Assembly: GCF_011065895.1 (NCBI RefSeq)
Contig: NZ_JAALCR010000002.1
Span: forward strand, 62,001 to 126,000
DNA: 64,000 nt
Source: Paludisphaera rhizosphaerae
GTDB taxonomy: Bacteria; Planctomycetota; Planctomycetia; Isosphaerales; Isosphaeraceae
Reading direction: 5' to 3'
How positions within the stretch are numbered: the stretch's first letter is position 1; each line of letters opens with the position of its first letter. The position numbers and the translations under genes were made by a program. Positions 2,876 to 51,538 of this stretch are shown here, piece by piece. The notes below the pieces were generated by a model. The model worked only from the letters and a program-made list of their open reading frames with translations, was not told where the DNA came from and did no database searches.

Positions 2876-5061
2876 CGGTCGGGGTGGTCGCCTTCCGTGA
2901 GGACGACGGGGGTCATCGGGATCGTCGACGCGTGTTCGTCGGCCAGCTTCTGGAATTCGAGCTGGCAGCGGACGACCGGCGCGCCAGCCTTCGGTTTGAC
3001 GCGGCGATAGGTTCCGTCCGCCTGAAGCTCGCGGGCCTTCACGTTGTCGGTCAGCGTGATGGCCAGGATCTCATCGACGATTCGAGCTTTCAGCGCGGGG
3101 GACTCGATCGGGAACATCAATTCGACCCGGCGTCGGAAGTTCCGGGGCATCCAGTCCGCCGACGAGAGGAAGACCTCGGGCTGTTCGGCGTTGGCGAAGT
3201 AGGTGATTCGCGAGTGTTCCAGGAATTTGTCGACGACGCTGCGAACCTTGATGTTCTCGGAGAACCCCGGAACGCCCGGCCGGAGACAGCAGATGCCCCT
3301 GACGATCAGGTCGATTTTCACGCCGGCCTGGGAAGCCTCGTAGAGCGAGGCGATGATCCGAGGGTCGACCAGCGAGTTCATCTTGGCGATGATCCGCGCG
3401 GGCACGCCGGCCCGGGCGTGATCGGCCTCGCGCCGGATCAGGACGGAGAGCCGATCGGCGAGATCCATCGGCGCGACGACCAGCCGCTTCCAGTTGTGGC
3501 CCTGTGAGTAACCTGTCAGCAAGTTGAAGAGCGCGCTGGCGTCTTCGCCGATCTCAGGTCGGCAGGTGAAGTAGCTGAGGTCGGTGTAGAGCCGGGCCGT
3601 CGTATGGTTGTAGTTGCCGGTCCCAAGGTGGATATAGCGTCGGATGCCGTCGTGCTCGCGGCGGACCACCAGCGCGGCCTTGCAGTGCGTTTTCAGTCCG
3701 ACGATGCCGTAGACGACGTGGACGCCCGCCTTCTGGAGCATCCGGGCCTTGTCGATGTTGTTTTCCTCGTCGAGCCTCGCCTGGAGTTCGACGAGAGCCG
3801 TGACCTGCTTGCCGTTCTCCGCGGCGCGGGCGAGGGCGGTGATGATCGGGTTGGAGTCGGCCGTCCGATAGAGGGTCATCTTGATGGCCAGGACGTTGGG
3901 GTCCTCGCTGGCCTGCTCGATGAGCTGGACGACGGTGCCGAATGATTCGTAAGGGTGATGGACGAGGAAGTCCTGATCGCGGATCGCCCGGAAGACGCTG
4001 TGCCTTCCCGTGAAGGCCGGCGGCATCTTGGGCTCGTAGGGGGGCTCCCGAAGGTCGCGGAACCCTTCCAGCTTGTACAGGCCGTTGAGGACGGTGAGAT
4101 CCACCGGCCCCGGCACCTTGTAAACGTCGCGCTCTTCAAGCTCCAGAGCCGAGCCGGCCAGGAGCTGAGCGAGGAATTCGTTGTCGGCCCGTTCGGAGAT
4201 CTCCAGACGGACCGGGGCCCCCCACTTCCGCTGGCGCAGCGTTTCTTCGATCGTCGACAGAAGGCTGCTCTTGACCTCGTTCTCCTGGATCGAGAGGTCG
4301 CTGTTGCGGGTGGCCCGGAAGGCGACGCGCTCCACGGTCCGATAGCCGCCGAAGAGGGCGTCGAGCCGAGGGCCGATCACGTCCTCGAGGAGGACGAACC
4401 GCTTGCCGCCGTCGGGTTCGTCCGGGAGCGGGACGAGTCGGCTGATGACCGACGGTACCTGAAGCACGGCGTAGAGGTTTCTGCCGTGCTGGTTCAGAGG
4501 CTCGATCCGCAGGAGCAGGTTGAGGCTCTTGTTGTGGACGTGGGGGAACGGGTGGGCCGGGTCGATCGCCAGCGGCGTGAGGACGGGATAGACCTGGTTT
4601 TGGAAGTAGTCGTCCAGGAAGGCGTTCTGGGTGTCGGTCAACTCCTCAGGGGAGCAGATCCGAATGCCGTACCCTTCCAGCTCCGGGCGGACTTCATGGA
4701 GCCAGACGTCGTACAGCCGCGCCACGAAGTCATGAGCGCGTTTGGCGATTTCCTGCAGTTGGGCCTGCGGTCCCATGCCGTCCGGAGGCGGATCCTGGGG
4801 CTCAAGGCTCTCGTAAAGCTGGGCCTGGAGACCGGCGACGCGGACCTCGAAGAACTCGTCGAGGTTCGAGGAGCAGATGGCGAGGAACTTGACGCGGTCG
4901 AGCAGCGGGTTGGAGCGATCGCGGGCCTCTTCGAGGACGCGCTCGTTGAACTCCAGCCAGCTCAGCTCGCGGTTGATGAACAGGCTCGCGTCGACCACGA
5001 CCGCCGGGGGGGCGGCCGGTGACGCCTTCTCTGCCTCTAAGGCGTTCTTCGTCTTTCCCAC
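2872..5061 (-). CDS. ppk1: Polyphosphate kinase 1
   Basis: Cytosolic or membrane-associated enzyme that reversibly polymerises the gamma-phosphate of ATP into polyphosphate. The N-terminal domain starts with FINRELSWLEFNERVLEEA, a hallmark of PPK1, followed by the SSNLDEFFEVRVAGL stretch. The HHPYESF segment, YRTADSNPI and LDEENNID follow. The catalytic histidine is in GLKTHCK (His459 with this start); the second conserved histidine is in FLEHSR (His616). The C-terminus has the SADWMPRNFRRRVE motif. With the GTG at 5061 the length is 729 residues, normal for the family. The frame stays open to 5193, but a start there would run into nfo. The gene lies 67 bases downstream of nfo and may be co-transcribed with it. 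Confidence 0.95.
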   Translation of the reverse strand: MGKTKNALEAEKASPAAPPAVVVDASLFINRELSWLEFNERVLEEARDRSNPLLDRVKFLAICSSNLDEFFEVRVAGLQAQLYESLEPQDPPPDGMGPQAQLQEIAKRAHDFVARLYDVWLHEVRPELEGYGIRICSPEELTDTQNAFLDDYFQNQVYPVLTPLAIDPAHPFPHVHNKSLNLLLRIEPLNQHGRNLYAVLQVPSVISRLVPLPDEPDGGKRFVLLEDVIGPRLDALFGGYRTVERVAFRATRNSDLSIQENEVKSSLLSTIEETLRQRKWGAPVRLEISERADNEFLAQLLAGSALELEERDVYKVPGPVDLTVLNGLYKLEGFRDLREPPYEPKMPPAFTGRHSVFRAIRDQDFLVHHPYESFGTVVQLIEQASEDPNVLAIKMTLYRTADSNPIITALARAAENGKQVTALVELQARLDEENNIDKARMLQKAGVHVVYGIVGLKTHCKAALVVRREHDGIRRYIHLGTGNYNHTTARLYTDLSYFTCRPEIGEDASALFNLLTGYSQGHNWKRLVVAPMDLADRLSVLIRREADHARAGVPARIIAKMNSLVDPRIIASLYEASQAGVKIDLIVRGICCLRPGVPGFSENIKVRSVVDKFLEHSRITYFANAEQPEVFLSSADWMPRNFRRRVELMFPIESPALKARIVDEILAITLTDNVKARELQADGTYRRVKPKAGAPVVRCQLEFQKLADEHASTIPMTPVVLTEGDHPDR

Positions 5062-43504: not shown

Positions 43505-44371
43505 ATGCGACAGGTTCTGTTCACGATCCCGTTCCTGGGACTGAAGGTCTACGGCTACGGGGCCATGCTCGTTCTGGCTTTCGCCTCGTCGACCTGGCTT
43601 GCCGTCCGTCGGGCGCGTCGCGAGAAACTTGATCCCGAACTCGTTCTGGACATGGCCTTCTGGCTGTTCGCGGGCGGCTTGATCGGCGCTCGTCTCTTCT
43701 ACTGCGTCCAGTATTGGGGTCGCGGCATTGACAGCATCCTCGACGTCTTCCAGTTCTGGAAGGGGGGGATCGTCTATTACGGCGGCATCTTCGGCGGCGT
43801 ATCGGCGTTCTTTCTCTACAACCGCGTCAACCCGTTCCCTGTCCGTCCTTACCTCGACGCGCTGGCCCCGTCGATCGCCGTCGGCACTCTCTTCGGCCGA
43901 CTGGGATGCTTCCTCAACGGGTGTTGCTTCGGCGACGTCTGCCACACCGCGCTCGGCGTGCGTTTCCCTCAGCACACCGACCCCTGGAATTCTGAGGTCC
44001 GTCTGGGACTGATCCCCCCGGATGCGGTTTACTCTCTCCCGCTCCATCCGACTCAACTCTACTCGGCGCTTGACGCGCTCGTGCTCCTCATCGTCCTGAC
44101 TGCGTACTATCCGCTCCGCCGTCGTGACGGCGAGGTGCTTGGCGTTCTCATGCTCGCCTATCCGATCACCCGATTCCTCATCGAATACCTTCGCAACGAC
44201 GAAGGGATTTTCTTCGCCGGCCTGACGATCTCCCAAACGATCAGCGTCTGCCTGCTCGCCTCGGCGGCGCTGTACTGGTTCTGGCTCTCACGCCTGCCGA
44301 AGGGGCGATACGCGGATCTCCCGGTCGCGCACGAGACCGAGGCTTCCGCCCTGACCGCTGTCGGCTCCTGA
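43505..44371 (+). CDS. lgt: Prolipoprotein diacylglyceryl transferase
   Basis: Integral membrane enzyme that moves diacylglyceryl from phosphatidylglycerol to the lipobox cysteine of prolipoproteins. 288 residues, seven helices. Motifs: VYGYGAMLVLAFA near the start, GGIVYYGGIFGG, GRLGCFLNGCCFG (the conserved GRxGNFxN region, changed here to GRLGCFLN), HPTQLYSALDAL and RFLIEYLRNDEG. The Asn-to-Cys change in the core GRxGNF motif is unusual but common in planctomycete Lgt as I recall. Preceded by GAGAGGAACGCC. Confidence 0.94.
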   Translation: MRQVLFTIPFLGLKVYGYGAMLVLAFASSTWLAVRRARREKLDPELVLDMAFWLFAGGLIGARLFYCVQYWGRGIDSILDVFQFWKGGIVYYGGIFGGVSAFFLYNRVNPFPVRPYLDALAPSIAVGTLFGRLGCFLNGCCFGDVCHTALGVRFPQHTDPWNSEVRLGLIPPDAVYSLPLHPTQLYSALDALVLLIVLTAYYPLRRRDGEVLGVLMLAYPITRFLIEYLRNDEGIFFAGLTISQTISVCLLASAALYWFWLSRLPKGRYADLPVAHETEASALTAVGS

Positions 44372-44475: not shown

Positions 44476-47400
44476 ATGAGGAAGCGACTCGGTTTCGGTC
44501 TCTGGTTGGGTCTCGCAGTGTTTGCAGGGAGCGGTTCGCGGGCGGAAGAGCTCCCCATCGGGGTCGCTCGCGTCGACGTGACTCCCACCGGCCCGATCCG
44601 CTTGCACGGTTATCTGGCCCGGTCGACTGAGACGACGAGCATCTCACATCCGATCTTCGCCAAGGCCCTGGCCGTTGGTTCCGATGCTGACAAGCCGGTC
44701 GTGCTCGTGTCGGTCGACAGTCTGGGCGTGTCCGCGGAGATCGTCGACGAGGTCGCCGCGCGGTTGAAGAAGAAGGCCGGACTGAGCCGTGAGCGGCTGG
44801 CGTTGGGAGCCAGTCACACCCATTACGCCCCCCTCCTGACGGGCGTCGCGCCCAATATTTTCGGGAAGCCGATCCCCGCCGATCAGCAAGAGCGAATCGA
44901 CGCTTATACCCGAGAGTTCACCGACAAGCTGGAAAGCGTCTGTCTCGCCGCATTGGCGGATCGCAGGCCGGCGACCCTCTCATGGGCGCAGGGGACTGTC
45001 GGATTCGCGGCGAACCGGCGAAATCCTCCTGGCGGGCCGGTGGATCACGCGCTCCCTGTGCTCAAGGTCACAGCGCCCGACGGTAAGGTCAGGGCCGTCG
45101 TCACCAACTACGCTTGCCACTGCACGACCATCAAGGCCGAGGACAACAAGGTCGACGGTGACTGGGCCGGCGCCGCCCAGCGCGGGATCGAGGCCGACAA
45201 TCCCGGATGCATCGCCCTGACGGTCGTCGGATGCGGCGCCGACTCGAACCCCAAGCCCCGCGGAACTCAGGAGGACGCTGAGAACCACGGTCGCGCCCTT
45301 GCCGACGAGGTCGCCCGGCTCATGAAAGGGCCGTGGAAGCCTCTGACGGGGAAGGTGGAAGCGGCGATGGACCGATTCCCCCTTTCGTATGACACCCTGC
45401 CGAACCGAGCCGATCTTGAGAAACTGATCGCCGCTGGCGGGCCGCCAGGCTACAACGCCTCGAAACAACTCGCCCGCCTCGAGCGCGACGGCAAGCTCGC
45501 CGAGACGCTCCCCTACTCCGCCCAGGCCTGGCGGTTCGGCGACGGCCTGATGATGGTCTTCCTTCCGGGCGAGGTCGTCGTCGACTACGTGTTGCGGTTG
45601 AAGAAGGAGTTCGACTCGTCACGTCTCTGGGTCACGGCTTACGCCAACGACGCGCCTTGCTATATCCCCTCCGAACGCATCCTCAAGGAAGGCGGATACG
45701 AAGGGGGCGGGGCGATGGTCTACTACGATCGCCCGACGAGGTTCAAACCCGGCTTGGAGCAGGTCATCATCGACGGCGTCCGTCGCGTCGCCGGCCAGAA
45801 TTTCGAGGCGCCCGCGAAGGCCGCACAGGCTGACGACGACCACATCCCAGCCCTTTCTCCTCAGGACTCGCTCGCGAAGATCCGCACGAAGCCAGGGCTG
45901 AAGGTTGAGCTTGTCGCGGCCGAGCCGCTGATCGAGAGCCCCGTGGCCGTCGACTTCGGTCCCGACGGTAAGCTCTGGGTCTGCGAGATGTTTGATTATC
46001 CGGCCGGCCTGGACGGCAAGTACAAGCCCGGCGGCCGCATCAAGGTCCTAGAAGACCGCGACCATGACGGCAAGTACGACACGGCGACCGTCTTCCTCGA
46101 CGGCCTCCCCTTCCCCACCGGCGTCACCTCTTGGCGGAAGGGCGTGCTGATCTGCGCGGCTCCGCAGATCATCTACGCCGAGGACGCCGACGGCGACGGC
46201 AAGGCCGACGTGCGCAAAACCTTCTACGAAGGGTTCGCCACCGAGAATTACCAGGCTCGCGTCAACGGACTGGCCTACGCCTCGGACGGCTGGGTCTATG
46301 GCGCGAACGGCCTGATCGGCGGCAAGATCCACGGCCGGGCAGACGGCCGCGATGTCGAGATCGGCGGTCGGGACTTTCGTTTCAAGCCGGATCTCGGGGT
46401 GTTTGAACCTGCCTCGGGACTAACCCAGCAGGGTCGTGTTCACGACGACTGGGGGAACCAGTTCGGCGGCAGCAACAGCGTCCTCATCCAGCACTATCCG
46501 CTGCCCGATCACTATGTCCGGCGCAATCCACGGGCGTCGTCCCCTTCACCGGCCGTGACCCCCAAAGGGGACGCAGACCAGGCCAAGCTCTACCCCGACA
46601 GTCGAACGCTAACCCGCTTCAACGAGCCCCAGAACGCCAACCGGGTCACCAGCGCGTGCAGCCCCCTGGTTCATCGCGACCCCCTGCTGGGCGAGGAATA
46701 CCTGGGCAACGCCTTTGTCTGCGAGCCTGTCCATAACCTCGTCCGACGCATGGTCCTGACGCCCCAGGGAGCGACCTTCGCGGGCCGCCGGGCTCCGGAC
46801 GAGCAGGATCGCGAGTTTCTGGCGTCGACCGATTCCTGGTTCCGGCCAGTCCAGGTGCGGACCGGTCCCGACGGCGCACTGTGGGTCGTGGACATGTATC
46901 GATTCATCATCGAGCACCCGCGCTGGATCAGCCCCGACCGGCTGGCCAAACTGGACGTCCGCGCGGGGGCTGACAAGGGCCGGATCTACCGCGTCGTCCC
47001 CGAAAAGGGTTCGCTCCGACCCGTGGCCACGCTCGAAACGCTCGGCACGCCTGAGCTGGCCGCCGCCATCGAGACCCCCAACGGTACGGTGCGAGACACT
47101 GTCCAACGCCTGCTGGACCATCGTCAGGACCATTCCGCCAAATCCGTCCTGATGCGGATCGCCCGAGAGAGCAAGATCCCCGAGGCCCGCGCTCAGGCCG
47201 TCGCCGCCCTGGATGTGACGGGCGATCTGGATTCCGACGTTCTGGTCGCGGCCCTCGGGGACGAGAAGCCGATTGTTCGGCGTGAGGCGGTCCGAATCGC
47301 CGAGTCCCGGCTCGCGAAGGACTCAGCCGTCGGTCAGGCCGTTGTGCGTCTCGCGGACGACCCGGACGTTCGGGTCCGCTATCAGACGGCGCTGAGTCTC

Positions 47401-50400
47401 GGTGAGTGGCCTGCTTCCGAGGCAGGCCGAGCGCTGGCGGCGATTGCGGTCCGCGACGGCAGCGATACCTGGATTCGCGCCGCGGTGCTCACCTCGGCCA
47501 CGCCGCACGCTCATATCGTGCTGGAGCGTCTGATCGCTGAGGCCGGTCCCGCCGGCCCGCCGTCGACGTTCGTCGGGCCGCTCATCGCCACGCTCGCTCG
47601 AAGTCGGGACCGTGAGGCTGTCGCGAAGGCTTTGGCCGTGGTCGCTTCCTCCTCTGAGCCGGAGCCCGCGCGGTGGCGACTGGCGGCCGCTGCCGAACTC
47701 CTGGACGCGGCGAAGGAGACGGCACTCGCCGCGGACCCTCGCGTCCTCCCCTTGATCGCTTCAGCTCGAAAGAAGGCGGCTGATGCCAAGGCGTCGCCGG
47801 CCGACCGCGTCGCCTCTCTACGTTTGTTGGGACGAAGCCCCGCCGATCGGGACTCGGATCGCGGTTTGGTCGCGGATCGACTCGACCCGGCCGAGCCGGC
47901 CGAAGTCCAGACTGCGGCCCTTCAGGCGCTGGCACGGCTGGCTGATGCGGCCTCCGACGATGCGATCATTGTGCGTTGGAATCGACTCGGCCCTGGCGCG
48001 AGGTCGGCCGCGATCGACGCCCTGGTGGCTCGGGACGCTTCCGCCGCCTCGCTTCTGACCGCCGTCGAGGCCGGTCGCATTCCTCCTTCACAGATCGGGG
48101 CCCAGCATCGGGAACGGCTCCTGAAGAGTGGACCCGAGTCGCTGCGTAAGCGCGCCGAGGCCGCGTTTGGGACTCTTGCGATTGGCCCTCGGGCCGACGT
48201 CCTCGCCCGCTACGAGTCGGTGAAATCGAATCCTGGCGACCCGATCCGCGGCAAGGGCGTTTTCCAACGCGCCTGCTCCGTCTGCCACAAGCTTGAAGGA
48301 GTCGGCGTCGAGGTGGGTCCGGATCTGGGGGCGCTGACGGACCTGTCCCCAGACGCGTTGCTGACGGCGATCCTCGACCCGAATCGCGAAATCGACGCCC
48401 GCTACGTCAGCTACAACGCCGCGCTGAAGGACGGTCGCACCATCTCGGGGCTGATTGCCAGCGAAACGGCCAGTTCCTTGACCTTGAAGCGTCAGGAGGG
48501 GGCGCTCGATGTGGTGCTCCGCGACGACATTGAAGAGATCGCCTCGTCCGGCCGATCGCTCATGCCGGAGGGTTTGGAGAACGACCTGAAGCCCGAGGAA
48601 ATCGCCGATGTCATCGCCTACCTTGGCAAGGGGGCGTCCCGGCCGAAGGTTCAGGACGGAAATCGTCCTCTGATCGTCAAGGCGGGCCCTGGCGGCGTGA
48701 TCCGCCTGACCGCGGCGACGGCCGAGATTTACGGTCCCAGCCTCGTCTTCGAGACCGAACACGCGAACCTCGGCTACTGGCATGCTCCCGCCGACCACGC
48801 GGCGTGGACGGTGGAAGTCGATCACGGCTCAATGTTCGACGTGACTCTCGAATGGGCCTGCGACGACGCCTCAGCCGGCAACGCCTACCTGCTGAACCTG
48901 GGGAGAAAGTCGTTCCGAGGCGTCGTCCCGACGACCGGCGGATGGGGGAGTTACCGCAAAGCCTCGGTCACGCACGAGGTTTTCCACAAGGCCGTCCATC
49001 GGGTCGAGATTCGACCCGATGGTCCGATTCATGGAGCGCTCGCAGACCTCCGCGCGATCATCCTGACTCCAGCCGAAGCCGGCGATTCCGGCCCCGAGAC
49101 GCCGGCTGAGGTGGCGCAGGCGATTCTCGACCCCAAGACGACCGCGGCGGAGAAGCAAGCCCTCATCGACCGCAACTCCGAAAGGTCGGCCGCTCTCATC
49201 GCCGCAATGGCCGAAGGTTTGGACGCCGCCGATGAAGCGGAGGAGTATCGCCGCATCCCCTGGATCTGGCGCGTCGCCATCGCCGCGGGCAAGCGCGACG
49301 ATGCCTCCGAGATGAAGAAGATCCTGGACGTCTCGCTTCCGACCGACGCTCCCGACGCCAAGCTCCACGACTGGCGCGCCGTGGTTCTGGGCGGCGGCCT
49401 CATTAACGGTGTGAGCATGACCGGCCCGATGCCCGGGGCACGTTTCGCGGAAGTTCTTCGCGACGAGCCTGCTCTCAAAGCCCGATGGGACCGCTCGATC
49501 GCTCTGGCCGCGAAGATGGCCGACGATGCGAAGGTTCGCACTGGAACCCGCTATGACGCCCTCCGGATGCTGGGCGTCGAACCCTGGGAGAAGCACGGCG
49601 AGCACCTGACGCGCTACCTCGCCGCCGGCATCGATCCTGAGTTGCACCAGGGGGCCGTCTGCGCGTTGGCGGACGTCCCGTCGACCAGGGTGGTCGCCCC
49701 CTTGCTGGATTGCCTCGGTCGTCTCACGCCGGGAAATCGTAAGTTTGCGATGCAGGCGCTCGTTCGCGACGCCGACCGTCGCGAGGCCCTCGTCGACGCC
49801 CTCGAAGCCGGGAAGGTCAAACCGGCGGATCTCAGTGAACAGGTTCGAGCGGTCCTCGTAACCCCGGAGAAGACGCGATCGGCCGACCGAGCCAAGCGTC
49901 TGCTGTCCCCCTCGACCGAAAAAGCCGATCCCGGCGCCGCGCTTCTCATACCCTTCGACGCCCTTGTCGCCCGGCTCCACGATCGAGGCCTGCGCATCCT
50001 CGACGCTCGTCCCAAGGCCGAATACGAGAAGGCGCACATCCCGGGCTCGGTCTGGGTGGACGTCAAGAAGGCTGAGGCCCTGGCGGCCGCTCCCGGTGGG
50101 TTGCAGGACGCAGGTCGGTGGACGGGTTGGATCGCCGATCTCGGGATCGATCCGATGGCCGAGATCGTCGTCTACGACGCGAAGCGTCAACTTGACGCCG
50201 CCCGCGTCTGGTGGCTGCTCAGTTATCTGGGCGTCGGGCGCGTGGCCCTCCTCGACGGCGGCTTTCCGCTCTGGGAACGGGAGGGACTGGCCGTCGATTC
50301 GGAGCCTGCCAAGGTCACAGCCTCGCCTTTCCCGATCTCCTTGCGCAAGGATCGCCTGGCGACTCGCGAGGACGTGTCGGACGTCCTGAAAGCGCAGTCC

Positions 50401-50742
50401 GCCCGAATCGTCGACGCCCGAAGCGAGGCTGAATACGTCGGCGATCGGGTGCTCTCGATGCGAGGGGGGCGGATCCCTGGCGCCTGTCCGGTCGAATGGG
50501 TTCGACTGGTCGACGCCGACGGCCGATTTCTCAACCCCGAGGCGCTTCGGGAACAGTTGCGAGCCGGCGGCGTCCAACCGGGCTCGCCGGTGGTCGCTCA
50601 TTGCCAGGGAGGCGGCCGAGCCTCGGTCGACGCGTTCGTCCTTGAACGGTTGGGATACTCGACCCGAAACTACTACCTTGGTTGGTCCGACTGGGGAAAC
50701 GCCGAGGACGTGCCGATCGAAACGGGGCCGTCGAAGAAGTGA
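44476..50742 (+). CDS. 2088-residue secreted fusion: ceramidase, dehydrogenase, HEAT, cytochrome c, CBM-like, tandem rhodaneses
   Basis: Signal peptide (residues ~1-23), then: ~24-450 a neutral/alkaline ceramidase N-terminal domain (LGASHTHYAPLLTG and NYACHCTTI carry the zinc-binding His); ~464-845 a PVC-type sorbosone-dehydrogenase-like beta-propeller (VAVDFGPDGKLWVCEMFDYP, EDADGDGKADV); ~860-1215 HEAT-like repeats; ~1250-1395 cytochrome c with CSVCHK (haem cysteines 1267 and 1270, His1271); ~1400-1540 a carbohydrate-binding-like domain; ~1560-1800 a helical region; ~1824-2080 two rhodanese domains, the first with Asp in place of the catalytic Cys, the second active (HCQGGGRAS, Cys2043). One open frame, GGAGG eight bases before ATG. 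Each part is known in planctomycetes; this combination looks exceptional. Confidence 0.87.
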   Translation: MRKRLGFGLWLGLAVFAGSGSRAEELPIGVARVDVTPTGPIRLHGYLARSTETTSISHPIFAKALAVGSDADKPVVLVSVDSLGVSAEIVDEVAARLKKKAGLSRERLALGASHTHYAPLLTGVAPNIFGKPIPADQQERIDAYTREFTDKLESVCLAALADRRPATLSWAQGTVGFAANRRNPPGGPVDHALPVLKVTAPDGKVRAVVTNYACHCTTIKAEDNKVDGDWAGAAQRGIEADNPGCIALTVVGCGADSNPKPRGTQEDAENHGRALADEVARLMKGPWKPLTGKVEAAMDRFPLSYDTLPNRADLEKLIAAGGPPGYNASKQLARLERDGKLAETLPYSAQAWRFGDGLMMVFLPGEVVVDYVLRLKKEFDSSRLWVTAYANDAPCYIPSERILKEGGYEGGGAMVYYDRPTRFKPGLEQVIIDGVRRVAGQNFEAPAKAAQADDDHIPALSPQDSLAKIRTKPGLKVELVAAEPLIESPVAVDFGPDGKLWVCEMFDYPAGLDGKYKPGGRIKVLEDRDHDGKYDTATVFLDGLPFPTGVTSWRKGVLICAAPQIIYAEDADGDGKADVRKTFYEGFATENYQARVNGLAYASDGWVYGANGLIGGKIHGRADGRDVEIGGRDFRFKPDLGVFEPASGLTQQGRVHDDWGNQFGGSNSVLIQHYPLPDHYVRRNPRASSPSPAVTPKGDADQAKLYPDSRTLTRFNEPQNANRVTSACSPLVHRDPLLGEEYLGNAFVCEPVHNLVRRMVLTPQGATFAGRRAPDEQDREFLASTDSWFRPVQVRTGPDGALWVVDMYRFIIEHPRWISPDRLAKLDVRAGADKGRIYRVVPEKGSLRPVATLETLGTPELAAAIETPNGTVRDTVQRLLDHRQDHSAKSVLMRIARESKIPEARAQAVAALDVTGDLDSDVLVAALGDEKPIVRREAVRIAESRLAKDSAVGQAVVRLADDPDVRVRYQTALSLGEWPASEAGRALAAIAVRDGSDTWIRAAVLTSATPHAHIVLERLIAEAGPAGPPSTFVGPLIATLARSRDREAVAKALAVVASSSEPEPARWRLAAAAELLDAAKETALAADPRVLPLIASARKKAADAKASPADRVASLRLLGRSPADRDSDRGLVADRLDPAEPAEVQTAALQALARLADAASDDAIIVRWNRLGPGARSAAIDALVARDASAASLLTAVEAGRIPPSQIGAQHRERLLKSGPESLRKRAEAAFGTLAIGPRADVLARYESVKSNPGDPIRGKGVFQRACSVCHKLEGVGVEVGPDLGALTDLSPDALLTAILDPNREIDARYVSYNAALKDGRTISGLIASETASSLTLKRQEGALDVVLRDDIEEIASSGRSLMPEGLENDLKPEEIADVIAYLGKGASRPKVQDGNRPLIVKAGPGGVIRLTAATAEIYGPSLVFETEHANLGYWHAPADHAAWTVEVDHGSMFDVTLEWACDDASAGNAYLLNLGRKSFRGVVPTTGGWGSYRKASVTHEVFHKAVHRVEIRPDGPIHGALADLRAIILTPAEAGDSGPETPAEVAQAILDPKTTAAEKQALIDRNSERSAALIAAMAEGLDAADEAEEYRRIPWIWRVAIAAGKRDDASEMKKILDVSLPTDAPDAKLHDWRAVVLGGGLINGVSMTGPMPGARFAEVLRDEPALKARWDRSIALAAKMADDAKVRTGTRYDALRMLGVEPWEKHGEHLTRYLAAGIDPELHQGAVCALADVPSTRVVAPLLDCLGRLTPGNRKFAMQALVRDADRREALVDALEAGKVKPADLSEQVRAVLVTPEKTRSADRAKRLLSPSTEKADPGAALLIPFDALVARLHDRGLRILDARPKAEYEKAHIPGSVWVDVKKAEALAAAPGGLQDAGRWTGWIADLGIDPMAEIVVYDAKRQLDAARVWWLLSYLGVGRVALLDGGFPLWEREGLAVDSEPAKVTASPFPISLRKDRLATREDVSDVLKAQSARIVDARSEAEYVGDRVLSMRGGRIPGACPVEWVRLVDADGRFLNPEALREQLRAGGVQPGSPVVAHCQGGGRASVDAFVLERLGYSTRNYYLGWSDWGNAEDVPIETGPSKK

Positions 50743-50746
50743 TCGC

Positions 50747-51538
50747 TCAAACTGTTCGTCGGGCGACCGCGAATAGCGACGTTCCAGTCGGCAGCCAGCC
50801 ACGCAGGGCCAACGGCTGCTCCATCGTGTAGACCGCACTCAGGAGCAGCGAGCCCGGCCATGGAGGAAGCCGAAGGTAGCGAAGGTAGACTTCGGCGGGA
50901 TCTTCACCGGGCCCCGCATCACGTCTCCCCAACCGTCGCCGGAGAATCGGGGTCATCCAGGAGCCCCACCAGAAGATCGATTCGATCGACAATCCCGAGG
51001 CGTCGAATGCGGAACGGAGCCCTTCCGGCAGGTAGCGCCGACGGTGCCCCTGGACGGAGTCGAATTCCGAGAACAGCGACGGCTGGGCCGGGACGCTGAC
51101 CACGAGCAAACCGCCCGCCTTGACCAGACCTGAAAGGGTGGCGACGGCGGCCCGGTCGTCGTCGAGGTGCTCGATGACATCGAGCGCCAGGACCGCGTCG
51201 AACGTCTCGGGGGCCGAGGTTTCGGGCCAAGCTTGCGTGAGATCGGCCTCGACGAGCCGGCGGCCGGGGGTGTCGAGCCGACCCAGGATTTGGGGAGAGA
51301 CGTCCAATCCGATCGCCTCGTAACCGGCCGTTTCGAGCGATTCGAGCGTCACACCCCAGCCGCAGCCGGCGTCGAGAACCCGATTCGGCGGGCGGATCCC
51401 ATACCGCTTCAAGAGGGCGAGTGTTAGTCTTGCACGCGCGGTCCACCAGGGGTGACGCCTCACGGCGTCTCCCGTCCTCATGAGGATTTCTTCGCTCATG
51501 TGGTCGTCCGCGACTCCTCGCGACCAGGTGCGGATCAT
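50747..51538 (-). CDS. Class I SAM-dependent methyltransferase
   Basis: 263 residues with the SAM-binding core RVLDAGCGWGVTLESLE (motif I), YEAIGLDVSPQIL, DLTQAWP and FDAVLALDVIEHLDDD (motif III region), followed by GGLLVVSVPAQPSLFSEFD and HRRRYLPEGLRSAF. The HRRRYxPxxL pattern resembles methyltransferases linked to surface glycan or lipid operons, and the related gene at 58677 has HQRRYHRREM at the equivalent place. The second half has an amphipathic/hydrophobic helix (PWPGSLLLSAVYTMEQPLAL). An alternative ATG at 51499 would shorten it by 13 residues. Convergent with the giant fusion gene, four bases apart. Confidence 0.85.
   Translation of the reverse strand: MIRTWSRGVADDHMSEEILMRTGDAVRRHPWWTARARLTLALLKRYGIRPPNRVLDAGCGWGVTLESLETAGYEAIGLDVSPQILGRLDTPGRRLVEADLTQAWPETSAPETFDAVLALDVIEHLDDDRAAVATLSGLVKAGGLLVVSVPAQPSLFSEFDSVQGHRRRYLPEGLRSAFDASGLSIESIFWWGSWMTPILRRRLGRRDAGPGEDPAEVYLRYLRLPPWPGSLLLSAVYTMEQPLALRGWLPTGTSLFAVARRTV

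Follow-up and report, generated by a model that had tools for sequence, protein, structure and literature searches.

A widespread ceramidase-like cytochrome chain carrying a rare rhodanese tail in Paludisphaera rhizosphaerae

Organization of the fused gene

The window, the whole stretch of 64,000 nucleotides analysed here, is taken from contig NZ_JAALCR010000002.1 of Paludisphaera rhizosphaerae. It contains a gene of 2088 codons whose product combines hydrolase, propeller, cytochrome, carbohydrate-binding-like and rhodanese domains, followed by a convergent methyltransferase gene. Coordinates are those of the window.

44476..50742, + strand: whole fused gene, 2088 codons and a stop (exact coordinates and length)
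44476..44547, + strand: signal-peptide-like N-terminus (residues 1–24), read from the translation
44557..45810, + strand: ceramidase-like metal amidase domain (residues 28–445), from Pfam PF04734 and profile matches to 4wgk and 2zws
45856..47004, + strand: beta-propeller, DUF7133/TIGR02604 (residues 461–843), from profiles, a structure model and a fold match to 3a9g
47005..48234, + strand: HEAT-repeat region (residues 844–1253), from PF13646 and helical repeats in the model
48235..48627, + strand: c-type haem domain TIGR02603 (residues 1254–1384), from its profile, with CSVCH at 1267–1271 and Met1363
48691..49071, + strand: CBM6/CBM35-like domain (residues ~1406–1532), from a model, fold matches and Pfam matches in relatives
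49072..49905, + strand: second helical-repeat domain (residues ~1533–1810), from the model and weak HEAT/alphaRep matches
49906..49941, + strand: junction (residues 1811–1822), at or near which the chain ends in four of six genus genomes
49942..50310, + strand: first rhodanese domain, which lacks the catalytic Cys (residues 1823–1945), from profiles
50311..50739, + strand: second rhodanese domain, with Cys2043 in the loop CQGGGRA, from profiles and alignments
50747..51538, − strand: convergent methyltransferase gene, lying just downstream of the chain, whether fused or unfused, in five of six genus genomes

The frame 44476–50742 is a genuine single frame. A second species of the genus (G001) carries the same fusion, 74 per cent identical and without stops, and comparison of the window's genome (G000) with G001 gives a dN well below dS in every domain (dN/dS 0.11–0.22). 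The fusion is thus better supported than a chance join, because it recurs in a second genome and every domain is under purifying selection. By itself a long open frame would be little proof in DNA as GC-rich as this: in the relative G004, a 1998-codon frame (L120) lies on the strand opposite its core gene and overlaps it.

That two genes only look fused, through an error in sequencing or assembly, is scarcely credible. The rhodanese is indeed a separate gene in relatives, but the same stop-free fusion is present in the second assembly, on which ground we reject an artefact. Moreover, the junction retains neither a signal peptide nor a start codon (no in-frame ATG, GTG or TTG in residues 1811–1841), and over its 36 codons dN is 0.347 against a dS of 1.224 between G000 and G001. 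An earlier note, made from the sequence of the window, had described one uninterrupted frame, and this holds; its two provisos, a misassembly or frameshift of genes separate in relatives and an order confined to one assembly, are both answered by the two assemblies that carry the fusion. Its domain list was confirmed by Pfam and NCBIfam profiles and, for the CBM-like stretch, by a structure model; the second helical-repeat domain (~1533–1810) was missing from that list. The N-terminus, MRKRLGFGLWLGLAVFAGSGSRAEE, looks signal-like by eye, and the fused protein is probably exported, in agreement with the secreted protein proposed earlier.

The ceramidase-like domain

Pfam PF04734 (Ceramidase_alk) matches residues 28–241 with 43.9 bits (gathering cut-off 32.1), in a single best stretch that covers model positions 3–229 of 509 and is not full length. 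Profile comparison matches the neutral ceramidases 4wgk and 2zws in the N-terminal half. The putative zinc ligands H114, H215, E366 and Y396, at positions that we take from the numbering of 2zws, are invariant in 30 of 30 rows, the assignment of E366 and Y396 relying on a second stretch that scores 2.5 bits. This alignment (A3) holds 30 of 38 rows, L014, L016, L021, L048 and L057 having been omitted for length, and also leaves out L051–L053, which have no ceramidase domain there. In the 39-row set, the zinc-ligand residues are missing only from L026, which is incomplete, and from L051–L053. The catalytic Ser of ceramidases could not be located in the domain. The window protein thus resembles neutral/alkaline ceramidases in the N-terminal half and in the four zinc-ligand positions, but differs from them in that the match spans under half of the length of the Pfam profile.

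The propeller and its possible cofactor

The propeller scores 492 bits with DUF7133 (residues 461–843) and 276.8 bits with TIGR02604 (residues 474–843; cut-off 122.2), and its structure model has a pLDDT of 87.9. Aligned with VIA-align, this model resembles the PQQ sugar dehydrogenase 3a9g (Z 25.8, rmsd 3.3, 285 aligned residues, 14% identity), and the best 16 rows are all sugar or glucose dehydrogenase entries, mostly named PQQ enzymes (Z 21.9–25.8). A Foldseek search with a 945-residue model returned mostly helical repeats, the apo form of sGDH being at rank 39. The modelled fold is thus like that of PQQ-dependent sugar dehydrogenases (3a9g, AA12 6h7t and sGDH 1cru), but the propeller sequence profile matched no solved PQQ enzyme.

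A profile search found pqqC in none of the six genus genomes, nor did any control genome match; the profile did give hits, below its cut-off, in six of 246 genomes of the phylum. Likewise, pqqE was above the cut-off in none of the six genus genomes, though also in none of 14 controls. PQQ can be scavenged. As neither pqqC nor a PqqE above the cut-off was found in the six genomes, a PQQ step would probably need scavenged PQQ or another cofactor.

These results bear on the possibility, which we regard as real but doubtful, that the propeller, instead of being a dehydrogenase, serves in binding or is lactonase-like, and that the haem works with another partner. It would fit the failure to find pqqC in the six genomes and the lack of a sequence match to solved PQQ enzymes, and the DFPase and lactonase propellers also reach a Z of about 21 with the model. 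Against it stand the 16 highest rows and the haem domain that all 39 rows, selected by length, carry together with the propeller; one other frame (L046) ends without a haem domain. The question concerns one step and is compatible with the explanation of the fusion that we prefer below.

The HEAT, haem and carbohydrate-binding-like domains

HEAT_2 (PF13646) matches residues 921–1005, and TIGR02603 matches residues 1254–1384 with 124.4 bits (cut-off 68.15). C1267, C1270, H1271 and M1363 are kept in all 39 rows, chosen for length; alignment A1 comprises 33 of these rows and alignment A4 32 of those 33. The haem-domain profile matches Kustd1711 (7zs0), the haems of which are described as His/Met in PMC11791136; by analogy, the distal Met of the window's CxxCH domain may play the same role. 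With both NCBI cut-offs exceeded, the window protein has the propeller–HEAT–haem order of the PVC-type heme-binding CxxCH proteins (TIGR02604 + TIGR02603; DUF7133), but differs in its ceramidase-like domain in front and in the CBM-like, helical and rhodanese domains after the haem.

The model of the CBM-like stretch (pLDDT 91.3, pTM 0.69) resembles CBM35 2w47 (Z 15.2) and CBM6 2cdp (Z 15.1), with an rmsd of 1.9–2.2. It was built from alignment A2, whose 15 rows include L053, a protein with a ceramidase, not a CBM, at its C-terminus. The window's own sequence matches no CBM family in Pfam up to E 0.1; among the 15 aligned members, CBM_6 is matched in four and CBM_35 in three. PVC-type haem domains are likewise combined with CBMs in the planctomycete-specific cytochrome proteins PSCyt1–3, which genomic context ties to carbohydrate use (PMC5615132); these have other partner domains, and section 13 of that paper names neither ceramidase nor rhodanese. 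A match of L058 that extends to residue 1837 is a piece of the helical end (1540–1837, 36% identity).

The rhodanese tail

Pfam Rhodanese matches two stretches of the tail, the best being 1829–1935, and the Cys is in the second of the two domains only. The best solved match is 1e0c (E 8.3e-33), which we take to be Azotobacter RhdA, in an alignment that spans both domains. The score with the 3-mercaptopyruvate sulfurtransferase (MST) equivalog PRK11493, 125.8 bits, is below its cut-off of 250. The tail is thus built like the two-domain rhodaneses (1e0c; MST), but differs from them in being the tail of a secreted cytochrome chain, with the loop CQGGGRA. Two-domain rhodaneses usually have a Cys-less first domain. 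The inactive rhodanese noticed earlier does lack the Cys, but we reject it as an oddity since this is the normal two-domain build.

Separate planctomycete copies have a hydrophobic, signal-like start in all 10 cases in which the start was read, whereas the two fused copies have no signal-like stretch at the junction. An apparent further fusion, open frame 928 of G116, is none: the frame simply stays open upstream of an internal Met, at which a signal-like sequence begins.

Distribution in relatives

The ceramidase–propeller–HEAT–cytochrome chain occurs in one frame in 39 of 60 fetched loci, mostly from Planctomycetota and Verrucomicrobiota, and none of these 39 carries a rhodanese. The join of a ceramidase-like hydrolase to propeller, HEAT repeats and cytochrome is therefore not peculiar to this genome. 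The rhodanese is usually a separate protein with a signal of its own. In L053 the hydrolase–cytochrome parts are in another order, with the ceramidase at the C-terminus.

The rhodanese is present in 26 of 45 family genomes, joined to the chain in two (G000 and G001) and to an SGNH hydrolase in one, a sister species. Neither G000 nor G001 yielded a further rhodanese match of more than 35% identity at E 1e-15. In G002–G005 the chain ends near the junction and a rhodanese copy of 52–58% identity lies elsewhere in the genome; that of G003 is on a different protein, where the frame is broken by decay or sequencing error. By direct search, the methyltransferase gene (71–75% identical) follows the fused chains of G000 and G001 and the unfused chains of G002, G004 and G005, but was not found adjoining the chain in G003. 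Since the same gene stands behind fused and unfused chains, the tail was probably inserted locally. The core tree does not group G000 with G001 (forced grouping, p-AU 0.055), so a single insertion in their own ancestor is unsupported. Overall, the comparison indicates that the ceramidase-like cytochrome chain is widespread and the rhodanese tail a rare later addition.

Beside their separate rhodanese, G002 and G004 share a neighbour (L122:9426-10679) that matches nothing in Pfam at E 0.001; it was not found in the other four of the six genus genomes. A neighbourhood comparison of 19 loci gave no shared partner among the matches listed. A literature search lying mostly outside subscription journals and preprints yielded, among the papers listed, no title or abstract opening announcing such a fusion, no paper naming Planctomycetes together with neutral ceramidase and none under 'PVC-type heme-binding' or 'Piru_Ver_Nterm'.

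Possible function of the fusion

We consider it fairly probable that the protein is a periplasmic hydrolase-oxidase directed at glycans or glycolipids, with a later-added, independently working sulfurtransferase on the same exported chain. The parts of the chain are shown by relatives: ceramidase-like amidase, propeller, HEAT repeats and c-type haem, with the CBM and second helical repeat in some lineages. The CBM6/35-like module would hold an N-acylated glycan or glycolipid, from which the metal amidase would take off the acyl group; the propeller may then oxidise the sugar and pass electrons, by way of the haem, to a carrier in the periplasm. That L053 has the same parts in another order favours a functional link between hydrolase and cytochrome. 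Comparison suggests that the tail stems from an exported two-domain rhodanese, whose mature portion, lacking the signal peptide, was inserted after the chain end and before the methyltransferase gene. The rhodanese would keep its own periplasmic sulfur-transfer role, using the chain for export and tethering with no shared reaction.

The earlier note had proposed a scaffold that could couple hydrolysis of sphingolipid or N-acyl sugars, periplasmic oxidation and sulfur transfer. The hydrolase–cytochrome half of this proposal is real as a join, but sulfur transfer fits it poorly, the rhodanese being on the chain in two of 26 genomes. Full coupling, in which all three activities share a substrate or electron path, for example through a rhodanese persulfide made or used at the haem, is accordingly rather improbable. 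The single chain is retained in two species with the catalytic Cys and haem residues intact, and no separate close copy was found in either, as coupling would suggest; however, the rhodanese is off the chain in 24 of the 26 genomes, the sister species carries it on the SGNH hydrolase, and four of the six chain proteins of the genus are without it. A tail that is an exported passenger with no selected benefit at this place is unlikely: its rarity (two of 45 family genomes) and the broken frame in G003 are what one would expect of it, but the rhodanese halves have dN/dS of 0.20 and 0.12 (G000 vs G001), the catalytic loop is unchanged between the fused copies, and no other close copy was found in the two genomes. 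Very improbable is a sulfurtransferase wired to the haem that would handle sulfane sulfur or sulfite from a sulfated or thiol-bearing N-acyl glycan, electrons draining through the cytochrome; if true, it would make the protein a periplasmic hydrolase, oxidase and sulfur-handling enzyme in one chain.

PVC bacteria have many propeller–HEAT–cytochrome proteins. The fact that this chain is joined, in either of two domain orders, to an amidase resembling ceramidases, and also to CBM-like modules, points to the oxidation of N-acylated glycans or glycolipids. The rhodanese tail appears to be a secreted enzyme that, in a single genus, has been transferred to two distinct secreted proteins.

General features of the fusion gene

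The surprising domain order of the 2088-residue protein is that of a widespread hydrolase–cytochrome chain (residues 1 to about 1815) carrying a rare tail, a C-terminal two-domain rhodanese. The fusion is not a new kind of system. The gene had earlier been described as a single open frame with these domains, and this description was correct. The following features were identified by translation, Pfam and NCBIfam.

44476-50742 (+), fusion gene, 2088 open codons
Residues 28-241, Ceramidase_alk
Residues 461-843, DUF7133/TIGR02604
Residues 921-1005, HEAT_2
Residues 1254-1384, TIGR02603 haem domain, CSVCH at 1267
Residues 1829-1935, best of two rhodanese stretches

The predicted structure of residues 446-1390 (33 sequences, pLDDT 87.9, pTM 0.87) contains a propeller whose best structural matches are PQQ sugar dehydrogenases (3a9g: Z 25.8, rmsd 3.3, 285 aligned), followed by DFPase and lactonase propellers (Z about 21). 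That of residues 1385-1822 (15 sequences, pLDDT 91.3, pTM 0.69) is a beta-sandwich matching CBM35 and CBM6 chains (Z about 15) with a C-terminal helical repeat, absent from the domain list of the earlier note. Forty-five places in the genome, fusion gene included, match some part of the protein. A gene for LGT (prolipoprotein diacylglyceryl transferase; 43505-44371 (+)) lies directly upstream; an 81 per cent identical LGT gene likewise precedes the chain in the congeneric genome G002, with a gap of about 4 kb.

One locus of a relative has a 1998-codon open frame opposite the core gene and overlapping it (L120:3174-9170 (-)), so long open frames by themselves are weak proof in this GC-rich DNA. 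Substitution rates between the genome studied (G000) and G001, of the same genus, show that the fusion gene is one open frame under constraint.

Table. Nei–Gojobori dN and dS, G000 versus G001, by domain.
Ceramidase: 0.166, 0.842
Linker (20 codons): 0.445, 1.283
Propeller: 0.101, 0.776
HEAT: 0.262, 1.174
Haem: 0.103, 0.958
CBM region: 0.153, 0.767
Second helical: 0.204, 0.931
Junction (36 codons): 0.347, 1.224
First rhodanese half: 0.183, 0.899
Second rhodanese half: 0.161, 1.303

Conserved residues and proposed function

The ceramidase domain profile aligns to neutral ceramidases (4wgk, E 1.8e-18; 2zws, E 6e-18). H114, H215, E366 and Y396, the last two through a second stretch of 2.5 bits, align with the ceramidase zinc ligands as numbered in 2zws. 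None of the four varies in an alignment of 30 rows. Among 39 rows, some of these positions are missing only in L026, which is cut short and does not cover H114 and H215, and in L051-L053, which have no ceramidase at this end. The haem Cys, Cys and His and Met1363 are present in 39 of 39 rows. A profile search with the haem domain gives a hit to Kustd1711 (7zs0; E 4.2e-23), a His/Met dihaem protein with calcium-tuned potentials near +350 mV (PMC11791136). In the second rhodanese domain, Cys2043 lies in the loop CQGGGRA; C-[QH]-x-G-G-R occurs in 21 of 26 rhodanese rows examined, the others being two gammaproteobacterial rows (CQTHxR), L106 (CNGGVA), the frame-broken copy of G003 and the first copy of L060.

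The protein would be exported, with a CBM-like module that may bind glycan, and would carry out N-acyl hydrolysis. The propeller might oxidise sugar, electrons leaving via the haem, and the tail probably keeps a separate sulfurtransferase role. Counting against the oxidation step is the failure to find pqqC or pqqE: pqqC was found in none of six genus genomes and none of 14 controls (6 of 246 genomes of the phylum gave a match to the model below its cut-off), and pqqE did not exceed its cut-off in any of the six, which, like every one of the 14 controls, gave weak radical-SAM matches only. A link to carbohydrate use has been drawn for other cytochrome proteins that are specific to PVC bacteria and carry CBMs, by genomic context only (PMC5615132). 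The fusion offers a useful starting point for working out what PVC cytochrome proteins do.

Distribution of the chain and of the rhodanese

Sixty loci matching the fusion protein were fetched in a search of genome contigs. In 39 of them, one open frame has a match from the ceramidase domain and the CxxCH and MPEG motifs; in a further two (L032, truncated where its contig ends, and L046) the match likewise begins in the ceramidase domain, with the motifs missing from the frame. No rhodanese match at E 1e-30 was found in the 39 chain loci, within the DNA fetched around each. Judged by title, most sources are MAGs or isolates of Planctomycetota and Verrucomicrobiota; a single one is titled Proteobacteria. 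L053:105-5648 (+) carries the chain parts in swapped order (LamG, propeller, HEAT, haem, then ceramidase). There is a ceramidase-type match in 101 of 118 class genomes; among the matches listed, most frames fall near the stand-alone size of 420-560 codons, and a minority have at least 1400 (fused size, judged by length).

The rhodanese is present in 26 of 45 family genomes (30 matches at E 1e-60 or better). Two matches are on the chain and one is in an SGNH hydrolase frame (736 codons); the remaining frames have 285-405 codons, except for a 928-codon frame that contains a signal-like start internally. At E 1e-55 it occurs in 37 of 297 class genomes, the longest frame apart from the two fusions having 928 codons. 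All 10 separate planctomycete copies whose start was read have a hydrophobic signal-like N-terminus (L094 and L129 left out of the count); the Salinisphaera relative L066 has none.

Fusion within the genus and origin of the tail

The chain is present in all six genus genomes examined, and is joined to the rhodanese in two, G000 and G001. The domain order seen in the earlier note recurs in G001 and does not extend to the other four (G002-G005), where the chain stops near the junction (residues 1811-1822) and a close rhodanese relative (52-58% identical) lies elsewhere in the genome. It stands alone in G002, G004 and G005. In G003 it is fused in frame with a secreted GDSL/SGNH hydrolase (L123:8549-10546 (-)), a second fusion partner of the exported rhodanese within the genus; the reading frame of this copy is interrupted at the active-site loop, either by decay or by a sequencing error. 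At E 1e-15, neither G000 nor G001 has a second rhodanese match exceeding 35% identity.

The fusion gene is followed by a convergent gene.

50747-51538, convergent methyltransferase gene, 3' of the fusion gene

This gene (71-75% identical) likewise lies downstream of the chain in fused G001 and unfused G002, G004 and G005; none was found beside the chain of G003. Being common to fused and unfused chains, it points to a local insertion of the tail, between chain and methyltransferase. Residues 1811-1841 contain no in-frame ATG, GTG or TTG codon.

The rhodanese tree, of 23 rows, places the fused copies as sisters (support 100/99), nearest to the other-genus copies G100 and G116a (90/97, below star level) rather than to the stand-alone rhodaneses within their genus. 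The core tree does not join G000 and G001; constraining them to group lowers the log-likelihood by 15.4 units (p-AU 0.055). The tail may have arisen by a single insertion in an ancestor of G000 and G001 alone, by an older fusion lost in the other genomes, or by transfer of the fused 3' end.

G001 also has a second, shorter chain paralogue (L095, contig C4; residues 10-1541, 53% identity). L060 carries two neighbouring separate rhodanese genes (1162-1962 and 3920-4711; 45% and 59% identical to the tail), the first with Ser at the expected catalytic Cys position.
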